Assembly (NCBI GenBank): GCA_005889475.1
Contig: VBGT01000001.1
Location: 1 to 38,263, forward strand
DNA length: 38,263 nt
DNA from: Chloroflexota bacterium
Lineage (GTDB): Bacteria > Chloroflexota > Limnocylindria > Limnocylindrales > CSP1-4
Direction: 5' to 3'
Below the pieces are notes generated by a model that saw only the letters and a list, made by a program, of their open reading frames with translations, searched no databases and was not told the DNA's origin. Each line of letters begins with the position of its first letter. Within the stretch, counting starts at the first letter, position 1. The position numbers and the translations under genes are program-made. Below, in pieces: positions 1 through 3,197 of this stretch.

Positions 1-908
1 CAGACCGAGAACCCGAGCGCGCCGATTCCGGCCGTGGCGAAGATGAACGCCTTGTACCCGAAGAGCGGCTTCCGACTGAAGACCGGCAGGACCTCGCTGA
101 TCACGCCCATGGCCGGCAGGACCATGACGTACACAGCCGGGTGCGAGTAGAACCAGAAGATGTTCTGGTAGAGCACCGCCTGGCCCTCCGGCGGCAGGAA
201 GAACGTGCCGCCGTAGTTGCGGTCGATGAACAGCATCACCAGGGCGCTCGTGATGACCGGCGTGGCCATGACCACGAGGACGCTCGTGACGAGCATCGTC
301 CAGACCATGATCGGCATCCGGAACAGGGTCATGCCCGGCGCGCGCATCTTGAAGATCGTCACGAGGAAGTTGATCCCGCCGAGGATCGAGCTCGTCCCGA
401 TCAGGACGAGGGCCATGATCCAGAGATCCTCGCCCGGCCCGGTGGAGGCCAACGGGCGGTCCTGGGCGAGCGGGCTGTAGCTCGTCCAGCCGGCCTGGGC
501 CACGCCGCCCGTCAGGAAGCCGCTGAGGAGCAGGACCCCGGCCAGCGGCAGCATCCAGAACGACAGGGCATTGATCCGGGGGAACGCCATGTCCGGCGCG
601 CCGATCATCAGCGGCACGGCGTAGTTCCCGAGCCCCGCGAGCATCGGGATGATGAACAGGAAGATCATCACCGTCGCGTGGATCGAGAACGCCTCGTTGT
701 AGACGTGCTCGTTGGTGAACAGCTGGATGCCGGGCACGGCCAGCTCGGTCCGGACCAGCAGCGCGAAGACGCCGCCGATGAGGAAGAACAGGAACGAGTT
801 GATGACGTACATGATCCCGATCTTCTTGTGATCGGTGGTCGTCAGCCACTCGTAGAGGCCGCCCCGGTAACCCGCGACGGCGGCCGGGCTCAGCGCGTGC
901 GTGGCCAT
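1..908 (-). CDS. coxA: cytochrome c oxidase subunit I (partial, A2-type)
   Basis: Catalytic haem-copper subunit of the aa3-type terminal oxidase, an integral membrane protein that reduces O2 to water and pumps protons. Only the first ~302 residues lie in the window; the C-terminal half with the two further CuB histidines is beyond base 1. Visible are the N-terminal TTDHKKIG motif, the low-spin haem histidine region (AFSIHATVMIF), the D-channel entry aspartate in GAPDMAFPR, and the helix VI CuB histidine with its neighbouring tyrosine. Helix VI reads YSHPAVY (His256, Tyr260). The Tyr-Ser pair and the absence of the usual glutamate (HPEVY) mark class A2 oxidases. The ATG at 908 follows GGAG/AGGG and lies 13 bases after the coxB stop, so both genes form one operon. 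The family and partial state are certain; the A2 assignment is very likely. Confidence 0.97.
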   Translation of the reverse strand, partial: MATHALSPAAVAGYRGGLYEWLTTTDHKKIGIMYVINSFLFFLIGGVFALLVRTELAVPGIQLFTNEHVYNEAFSIHATVMIFLFIIPMLAGLGNYAVPLMIGAPDMAFPRINALSFWMLPLAGVLLLSGFLTGGVAQAGWTSYSPLAQDRPLASTGPGEDLWIMALVLIGTSSILGGINFLVTIFKMRAPGMTLFRMPIMVWTMLVTSVLVVMATPVITSALVMLFIDRNYGGTFFLPPEGQAVLYQNIFWFYSHPAVYVMVLPAMGVISEVLPVFSRKPLFGYKAFIFATAGIGALGFSV

Positions 909-921
909 CCCTACCGGCTCC

Positions 922-2046
922 TTATTTGACCGTGAGCGTGCCCGTCATCGGCGCGATCGGATGGATCGAGCAGATGAACGTATACGTCCCTGGCGCCAGG
1001 GGCTCGTACTGGTAGTTCTTCTCCGTGCCGCCCGGGATCGCGTCCTGCTTCTGGACGACCGTGGTGCCGTCGCTCTGGCGGATCTCGACGTCGTGGGTGA
1101 TCGAGCTCGGGTCGCCGTTCTTGAAGTTGATAACGAACGGCGTGTTACCCGCGACCTCGAGGGTCTTCACATCGAACGCGATGTTCTTCGCCTCGACCTT
1201 GAGCGTGGGCGCCCCGGACGGGGGCGGCGGCGGGGTCGCGTTCGCGACCTCGACCAGCTTGGCCAGCCACGCGTCGAAGTCCGGTTGGCTCATGGCGATC
1301 ACGTCGAAGTGCATCGCGTTGTGGAACGTGCCGCACAGCTCGGCGCACTGCCCATGGAAGGTCTGGCCGGCCTCATCGGCGTCGACCGTGAACTCGAAAT
1401 GGTTGGTCTGACCGGGGACGACGTCGCGCTTGAACAGGAAGCGCGGCACGTACCAGGCGTGGATGACGTCACCGCTGGTCAGCGTCACGTAGACCTTCTT
1501 GCCGACGGGCACGGCCATGCCGCCGCCGCCGCTCCCGCTGAGTGCCTTCGTCTGCGTGGCCAGGTGCTTTCCGCCCGCGTCGAGGTACTCGAACTGCCAC
1601 TGGAACTGGCCGGCGATGGCGTTGATCCGGACGTCGGGCTGGCCGCCCTGGGCGACGCTCGTCGCATCGACCTTGTTGAGCGTGTCCCAGGACACCCCGA
1701 ACAGGAACAGGACGATGACCGTGGGGATCGCGGTCCAGAGCGCCTCGACGACGTTGTTGCCGTGCGTCTGGGGCGGGAGCTCGGTGTCCGTCGGGCGGCG
1801 CCGGTAGCGAAGGATGCTCCAGACGATCAGGCCTTCGACGGCGAGGAAGATCGCGACCGCGATCGCGAACACGACGTCGTACAGCTGGCTGATCTCGTGC
1901 GCCCGATCCGTGACTGCTTTGGGCGGAAACAGCGACGAGCCGGCACCGCTCCAGAAGACGAGACCGACGATGGCGATCAGGAGGACCACGACGCCGCCGG
2001 CGACGATCGCTTCGGAGGCGGGGCGCTTCCTCGGACTGGTCGACAT
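922..2046 (-). CDS. coxB: cytochrome c oxidase subunit II with extra C-terminal cupredoxin domain
   Basis: Accepts electrons at the binuclear CuA centre and passes them to subunit I. The 374-residue protein has two N-terminal membrane helices (about 14-34 and 58-78). A periplasmic CuA domain follows, with ligands His196, Cys234, Glu236, Cys238, His242 and Met245. After a Pro/Ala linker (about 268-280) there is a second cupredoxin-like domain to the end. It has a complete set of likely type-1 copper ligands: His318 (THDVEI), Cys359, His362 and Met367. Caa3 oxidases usually carry cytochrome c in this position, so the extra domain could be a built-in electron donor (inference). The ATG at 2046 has GAGGAG just upstream. 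It is followed by coxA and is divergent from ctaG. Confidence 0.95.
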   Translation of the reverse strand: MSTSPRKRPASEAIVAGGVVVLLIAIVGLVFWSGAGSSLFPPKAVTDRAHEISQLYDVVFAIAVAIFLAVEGLIVWSILRYRRRPTDTELPPQTHGNNVVEALWTAIPTVIVLFLFGVSWDTLNKVDATSVAQGGQPDVRINAIAGQFQWQFEYLDAGGKHLATQTKALSGSGGGGMAVPVGKKVYVTLTSGDVIHAWYVPRFLFKRDVVPGQTNHFEFTVDADEAGQTFHGQCAELCGTFHNAMHFDVIAMSQPDFDAWLAKLVEVANATPPPPPSGAPTLKVEAKNIAFDVKTLEVAGNTPFVINFKNGDPSSITHDVEIRQSDGTTVVQKQDAIPGGTEKNYQYEPLAPGTYTFICSIHPIAPMTGTLTVK

Positions 2047-2195
2047 GGCTCCTCGGCTGCGTCGGCGGTACCGGGACCCGGGAGCCTGGGACCGGGGGCC
2101 GCCGGGTGGTGACGTTGAAACGGCCGACCTGCGAGGGCCAGCCGAAGGCCATCATAGCGCGGGGTCGGATCGACGCGCCGTGCGACCATGGCACC

Positions 2196-3197
2196 GTGGT
2201 TCGCCTCCTGGGTCGCCTCGCCGTCGCGGGCGCCGTGCTGGCGTGGCCAGCCTCGGCCCTGGCCGACGGGCCGGTCCCCGCCGAGCCGCCGAGCCTGCGG
2301 ACGCTCGTCCTCGGCTGGTCGCTCGAGCCGTCGGTGGCGATCCCCCTGGTCCTCGCCGCGATCGGCTGGCTGGCGATCGTCCGGCGGGTCGCGCGGCTGC
2401 ATCCGGACCGGCCGGTGCCCGCCGCTCGAACGGCGGCGTTCCTCGGCGGGCTGGCCGCGATCGCCGTCGCGCTCCTGTCCGGGATCGAGCGCTACGACAC
2501 CACCTTGTTCTCGGTGCACATGGTCCAGCACCTGCTGCTCATGCTGGTCGCGGCACCGCTCATCGCCCTCGCCGCGCCGATCACGCAGCTGCTCCGCGCT
2601 GCCTCACCGGAGGTGCGCAGCCGGTGGCTCCTGCCGGTCCTGCAGTCGGCGCCCGCCGCCGCGCTTGGCCACCCCCTGGTCGCGTGGCTGACGTTCACGC
2701 TCGTGCTGTGGATCAGCCACTTCTCGCCCCTGTTCGACCTCGCCCTCGAGAGCCCCGGGATCCACGAGCTCGAGCACGCCGGGTTCCTGATCGCGGCGCT
2801 GCTCTTCTGGTGGCCGGTCATCGGCCTGGACCCGGCGCCCCACCGGCTGGGCTACCCGGCGCGGGCCTTGTACCTGCTGGCCCAGATGCCGTTCAACTCC
2901 TTCCTCGGCATGGCGATCCTCTTCGCCGCGGCCCCGCTCTACCCGCACTACGCGACGCTCGGGACCCCGTACGGCATCTCGCCCCTCGCCGACCAGGAGC
3001 TCGCGGGCGGGATCATGTGGCTCGCCGGGGACGTCGTGTTCATCGTGGGCATCCTCGTCGTGGTCGCGGCCTGGATGCGCCACGAGGAGCGCGACGCGCC
3101 CGCCGCGGAGCGCCGGACCGCGGCGCGCCGGGCGCTGATCAACGAACGGGCAGACCAGCTCGCGCGCGCGAAGCGAGAGGGGCTCGGGCCGAACTGA
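2196..3197 (+). CDS. ctaG: cytochrome c oxidase assembly factor CtaG (caa3 type)
   Basis: Multi-pass membrane protein of the caa3_CtaG family, required for assembly of the oxidase, probably at the CuB site. The 333 residues include an apparent signal sequence (VVRLLGRLAVAGAVLAWP) and about seven membrane helices. They also carry the family histidines in SVHMVQHLLLM and ELEHAGF and the conserved PxNSFLGMAI stretch. The frame is open upstream to 2106, but that part does not look like protein. I therefore place the start at the GTG at 2196, where the signal sequence begins; no clear ribosome binding site decides it. It is divergent from coxB across about 150 bases and convergent with the dehydratase gene, with an 18-base gap. 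Confidence 0.88.
   Translation: MVRLLGRLAVAGAVLAWPASALADGPVPAEPPSLRTLVLGWSLEPSVAIPLVLAAIGWLAIVRRVARLHPDRPVPAARTAAFLGGLAAIAVALLSGIERYDTTLFSVHMVQHLLLMLVAAPLIALAAPITQLLRAASPEVRSRWLLPVLQSAPAAALGHPLVAWLTFTLVLWISHFSPLFDLALESPGIHELEHAGFLIAALLFWWPVIGLDPAPHRLGYPARALYLLAQMPFNSFLGMAILFAAAPLYPHYATLGTPYGISPLADQELAGGIMWLAGDVVFIVGILVVVAAWMRHEERDAPAAERRTAARRALINERADQLARAKREGLGPN

Follow-up and report, generated by a model that had tools for sequence, protein, structure and literature searches.

A second, C-terminal cupredoxin, predicted to be a type-1 blue copper domain, on cytochrome c oxidase subunit II in Chloroflexota

In this work, we describe a cytochrome c oxidase subunit II, encoded in a genome of the Chloroflexota, in which the CuA domain is followed by a second cupredoxin, predicted to bind copper as type-1 blue copper proteins do. 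The gene lies at 922..2046, on the minus strand of the window, as we call the whole stretch of 38,263 nucleotides that was analysed. A preliminary description, made from the sequence alone, had read it as CoxB joined to a second, type-1-like cupredoxin; this reading was borne out, and its coordinates proved exact. We think it rather probable that the tail, as a tethered blue-copper domain, relays electrons from complex III to CuA.

The coxB gene and its second cupredoxin

From an ATG start, coxB encodes a cytochrome c oxidase subunit II of 374 aa with a C-terminal cupredoxin, which scores 179.2 bits against the NCBIfam CoxB model TIGR02866 (cut-off 147.7). Its COX2_TM region, containing two membrane helices (residues 42-115, positions 1702..1923, minus strand; Pfam PF02790, E 7.5e-13), is followed by the core of the CuA domain (residues 176-247, 1306..1521, minus strand; Pfam PF00116, COX2, E 1.2e-16). 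The ligand set His196, Cys234, Glu236, Cys238, His242 and Met245 is complete: the CuA domain had been described as such, and rightly, all six ligands being present. A Pro-rich linker recognizable in the sequence (residues 263-275, 1222..1260, minus strand), likely a flexible tether, leads to the type-1 cupredoxin domain (residues 276-374, 925..1221, minus strand), to which two Pfam families can be aligned: Cupredoxin_1 (PF13473) at residues 276-373, with E 2e-14 and 53.9 bits (cut-off 27), and Copper-bind (PF00127) at residues 282-374, with E 4.4e-5 and 24.3 bits (cut-off 21.2). The score of the protein for the plastocyanin equivalog TIGR02656, 18.7, is far below the cut-off of 87.85.

The tail presents a His, a Cys, a His and a Met in type-1 order, with the plastocyanin spacing C-x2-H-x4-M. 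These residues are His318, the N-terminal His ligand (codon at 1093..1095), Cys359 (970..972), His362 (961..963) and Met367 (946..948), all encoded on the minus strand; they are the four named in the preliminary description, which was correct as to both identity and order, and they are invariant in the relatives. The CXXCH motif is absent from the tail, where Pfam gives a cupredoxin; the window CoxB thus does not carry the cytochrome c that characterizes subunit II of caa3 oxidases.

Conservation was evaluated on an alignment of 21 fused CoxB proteins, the window protein and 20 others, 30-77% identical to it. All 21 match Cupredoxin_1 and share, without exception, H318, C359, H362 and M367 along with the CuA ligands H196, C234, C238, H242 and M245. 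The four copper ligands are also kept in 40 out of 40 related tails, contributed by three different proteins; taken together, these figures are far from what chance would produce. The ligand loop varies in length among the tails, from C-x2-H-x2-M, as in amicyanin, to C-x2-H-x5-M, which indicates that the motif is not simply carried along by near-identity of the proteins. Within the genus, the tails diverge faster than the body of CoxB (62-65% vs 80-88% identity).

The solved structures matched by a profile built from 19 tails include auracyanin A (E 9.8e-12), whose alignment keeps the ligand positions in register, as well as auracyanin B, amicyanin, plastocyanin and other blue-copper proteins. 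These sequence comparisons place the tail, as a prediction, among the type-1 blue copper proteins of the plastocyanin/azurin superfamily, and predict that it binds copper.

The full-length AlphaFold model features helices at residues 47-80 and 97-127. Most strands of the tail have a pLDDT of about 77-86, the ligand loop of about 56-63 and residues 271-290 of about 52-54. The model matches known subunit II structures among the top 50 matches listed, a result that carries no information on the tail. When the tail was modelled by itself, from just three input sequences, the pTM was 0.57 and Foldseek gave matches to unrelated beta folds; this outcome was not counted as evidence against a cupredoxin fold.

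Distribution and evolution of the tails

Among 301 genomes of the phylum that were searched, the full-length fusion occurs in the genus, the family and the class of the window's genome, as well as in another family, f19. The f19 CoxB genes with a cupredoxin tail lie close behind a Rieske/cytochrome b/cytochrome c operon (L080:6276-7262, L082:5134-6075). The same fusion, in the same gene order, is present in a public named genome, the Chloroflexi MAG palsa_1032 (L113), while none of the other 79 of the 80 best CoxB relatives fetched has a blue-copper tail, and many of them have a cytochrome c tail. A tblastn search of plasmids returned no CoxB match covering 80% of the query.

Within the class, the tail of the main CoxB differs by family. 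In f1 and f3, one of which is the window's own family, it is a type-1 cupredoxin wherever the gene is complete, the f1 exceptions being three genes either cut by a contig end or apparently disrupted (G031, G264, G131). Two of the three f2 CoxB proteins end in another cupredoxin subtype (C-x4-H-x4-M) and the third is tail-less; the f2 tail may have been swapped, or gained twice. In this small-genome family, the subtype tails are found at L248:5653-6654 and L249:1611-2696. The caa3-type families f4 and f5 have a cytochrome c with CXXCH at the end of the main CoxB, a few of these proteins being tail-less; that cytochrome c is the usual domain at this position in caa3 oxidases, as stated beforehand, is thus true of the sister families themselves. 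The CoxB-cupredoxin fusion is a trait of long standing in this class. G219 and G243 also gave weak COX2 matches, which were left out: the proteins concerned, of ~660 aa, have the motif at their extreme end and are probably nitrous oxide reductases.

In f1, similar tails are found on CoxB, on a subunit-IV-like protein and on a cytochrome c. They group by lineage and not by protein, a separate clade for each protein being rejected (AU p <1e-4 each), in trees which are based on about 100 columns and have many weakly supported branches. Identity is about 49% between tails of different proteins from one subgroup and 42% between tails of the same protein from different subgroups, a contrast to be taken as descriptive, the subgroups having been named after the first tree was seen. 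These sequence data suggest that tails have either been exchanged between genes within lineages or evolved jointly.

Operons, electron carriers and a putative relay

The coxB gene belongs to an oxidase operon. The subunit I gene, coxA (3..908, minus strand, identified by Pfam), is truncated by the contig start, and ctaG, encoding a caa3-type oxidase assembly factor, is the divergent neighbour (2106..3197, plus strand; Pfam PF09678, E 2.9e-74). The remainder of the operon, namely the end of coxC and a subunit-IV-like cupredoxin protein, begins another contig, C112 (L053). In same-genus genomes (L063, L064) the operon is intact, and contains, in this order, coxB-cupredoxin, coxA, coxC, genes for a small and for a subunit-IV-like membrane protein, the latter ending in a second cupredoxin, then those for a Redoxin-family (AhpC-TSA/Redoxin) protein and an apparent ABC ATPase and permease, with ctaG divergent. 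The same-genus CoxA exceeds the NCBIfam CtaD_CoxA cut-off. The subunit-IV-like protein, whose tail is of type 1 (L053:599-1588; L063:6618-7730; L064:4439-5524), gives a weak Cyt_c_ox_IV match, below the cut-off.

The window's genome contains one COX1, one COX2 and one Cytochrom_C domain. The latter (L049:9513-10583) has one CXXCH, followed by a cupredoxin tail, and its gene is preceded by those for a FAD/Fe-S oxidoreductase, cytochrome b6, subunit IV and a Rieske protein. A second CXXCH is absent from this cytochrome c, which is therefore not the di-haem QcrC of a bcc complex. Its tail and that of the subunit-IV-like protein had escaped the preliminary description. No match to PF03916, the NrfD-type subunit of alternative complex III, was found in the genome, and there is hence no sign of this complex; the suggestion that an alternative complex might be the donor was not upheld, the operon present being of the bc type. 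Neither another cytochrome c nor a second CuA oxidase was detected in this genome, which is 90.7% complete. A cytochrome c might be encoded in the missing part, though the cytochrome c content of the same-genus genomes G155 and G211 agrees with that found here.

Some additional features of these loci may be recorded. At L049:5640-8203, the oxidoreductase with which the bc operon starts contains Pyr_redox_2 and Fer4_20 domains, and the cytochrome b6 passes the cut-off of the NCBIfam model for ExtP, a protein of selenite/tellurite reduction operons; a Kelch protein gene sits after the cytochrome c. Four small cupredoxins with a type-1 motif, possible free carriers, are encoded elsewhere in the genome (L050:5492-5914, L051:5440-5829, L052:5325-5924, L054:5165-5593); they are 130-200 aa long and lie on contigs other than those of the oxidase and bc operons.

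The relationship between CoxB tails and cytochrome c content was followed across the families. Exactly one Cytochrom_C domain is found in 12 out of 13 f1 and f2 genomes having a CoxB, but no tail-less locus of the bcc type, a set which includes one tail-less f2 CoxB and two of the other cupredoxin subtype; the exception, G179, has four. A tail-less CoxB is present as a second copy in the f1 genomes G115, G195, G203 and G235, and as the sole one in G139, and these genomes hold 2-3 Cytochrom_C domains. In four of the five loci (L238, L240, L241, L242) it lies near a di-haem cytochrome c (two CXXCH), in operons that comprise Rieske, cytochrome b and di-haem cytochrome c genes along with further respiratory subunits, and that resemble the actinobacterial bcc-aa3 arrangement; the contig of the fifth locus, L239, is short. 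Among f1 genomes of the class sample, those devoid of a tailed CoxB (G139, G049, G187, G257) are also devoid of the cytochrome c-cupredoxin fusion. Three of them, G049, G187 and G257, all of genus g3, have neither a COX2 nor a Cytochrom_C match, and seem to have lost oxygen respiration by the CoxB/cytochrome c route.

Genomes of f3 combine the CoxB tail with 2-6 Cytochrom_C domains, and none was seen to encode the cytochrome c-cupredoxin fusion. The tail is thus not always paired with loss of cytochrome c, and a strict replacement can be claimed for no more than f1 and perhaps f2; the pattern is, moreover, an association across related genomes and not a series of independent events. The preliminary description had proposed that the oxidase might take electrons without a separate cytochrome c, and that the fusion be looked for in genomes with and without cytochrome c genes. 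The proposal fits the window's genome, where the only Cytochrom_C detected is a bc subunit, itself fused to a cupredoxin; it does not extend to f3, which keeps several.

The relay rests on what the sequences show: its domains and conserved ligand residues, the setting of the genes in operons, and a genome in which no other c-type cytochrome was detected. The bc-type complex (Rieske, cytochrome b6, subunit IV) would oxidise quinol, and the electron would pass to the single haem c of the cytochrome c subunit and then to the cupredoxin tail of the same subunit. From there it would be transferred to the CoxB cupredoxin, either directly or via the subunit-IV tail or a small cupredoxin, and subsequently to CuA, haem a and haem a3-CuB. 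The linkers would act as swinging arms, and a soluble cytochrome c would thus be dispensable. In this scheme, we infer the copper loading of the tails, their redox potentials, the direction of transfer and the physical association of the complexes. Four observations speak against it: the f3 cytochromes c, the small cupredoxins of the genome, which could be the true carriers, the AlphaFold models, which yielded no usable geometry of the copper site, and the completeness of 90.7%.

The second of these observations lends itself to a different reading, in which a small free auracyanin-like cupredoxin is the donor, and the tail, instead of being an obligatory relay, serves for docking or parking or forms a side branch. 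Small cupredoxins with type-1 motifs are indeed encoded on other contigs, and AuraB of Chloroflexus has been proposed as a respiratory carrier (PMC3150298). We regard this reading as unlikely, since the free cupredoxins are not on the contigs of the oxidase or bc operons, and conservation of the four ligands everywhere goes beyond the needs of docking. The Redoxin-family protein, the ABC transporter and the divergent ctaG would also suit a cluster devoted to copper-site assembly, with the tail delivering copper to CuA or CuB. Such a role is improbable, because the ligands are the type-1 electron-transfer set, whereas PCuAC-like chaperones have been described with Met/His ligands for Cu(I) (PMC6696091), and because the same domain is found on the cytochrome c of the other complex, where assembly of CuA makes no sense.

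Still less credit can be given to a metal-free cupredoxin fold that only helps complexes III and IV to stick together: the low confidence of the ligand loop in the full-length model and the faster divergence of the tails with respect to the CoxB body would agree with it, but exactly the four copper ligands are invariant despite a mean tail identity of about 49% in one subgroup. That the fusion is an assembly chimera or an annotation artefact is hardly believable; most genomes are drafts and coxA is cut at the contig start, yet fusion and gene order recur in independent genomes, palsa_1032 included. The tethered relay is hence the reading we favour for the window's genome. Its extension to the whole lineage, which would move electrons from complex III to complex IV via three tethered tails, co-evolving in each lineage, without a soluble cytochrome c, is put forward tentatively, its chances being slightly less than even.

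Relation to known systems

Complexes III and IV are linked, in textbooks, by cytochrome c or by a tethered haem, as in mycobacteria and in caa3 oxidases. Blue-copper carriers between the two complexes are known or hypothesised, a halocyanin-IIa fusion and mycobacterial transfer without soluble cytochrome c are already known, and the CoxB-cupredoxin architecture is probably already listed in domain databases. The open-access literature gave no account of a CuA subunit II ending in a cupredoxin, subscription journals being mostly outside this search, nor did the class and order names retrieve anything from open-access literature. If the relay is true, a blue-copper tether would be present at both ends in A-type bacterial respiration, and in this group of Chloroflexota tethered copper proteins may have taken over from the usual soluble cytochrome c. 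Within one class, and on the same subunit, families are split into those with cytochrome c and those with cupredoxin tails, a natural experiment which asks when copper replaces a haem donor, be it for iron or copper supply, potential or the cost of haem.

In caa3 oxidases, such as that of Thermus, cytochrome c is fused to subunit II. The window CoxB is similar in having an electron-transfer domain fixed C-terminal to the CuA domain, ctaG adjoins it and the sister families are of the caa3 type; it differs in that the domain is a blue-copper one instead of a cytochrome c, with no CXXCH. Auracyanin, in Chloroflexus and Roseiflexus, is a blue-copper carrier partnered with alternative complex III. 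It is the top solved-structure match of the tail profile, comes from the same phylum, has the same four ligands and has a proposed respiratory role, AuraB having been suggested to carry electrons during respiration in Chloroflexus (PMC3150298). Auracyanin is, however, a separate protein working with alternative complex III, whereas the window domain is covalently part of the oxidase, in a genome with a bc-type complex.

Plastocyanin-like proteins have been hypothesised to link complexes III and IV in ammonia-oxidising archaea (PMC7300363); unlike the tails described here, they are separate proteins and not CoxB fusions. In Haloarchaea, halocyanin is fused to oxidase subunit IIa (PMC3128077), so that a blue-copper protein is, here as well, covalently attached to a subunit of a heme-copper oxidase. 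The haloarchaeal domain is carried by the small helix IIa of a B-type (ba3) enzyme and does not follow the CuA domain of a subunit II; in the genus of the window, CoxA is over the CtaD_CoxA cut-off and the domain is on subunit II. The mycobacterial bcc-aa3 supercomplex, which contains a di-haem QcrC and uses no soluble cytochrome c (PMC4505504), likewise passes electrons on to complex IV by way of a domain fixed to complex III. The mycobacterial tether is a second haem c, whereas the window's lineage has cupredoxins on both complexes, and some f1 relatives hold a di-haem cytochrome c and a tail-less CoxB as a separate chain.
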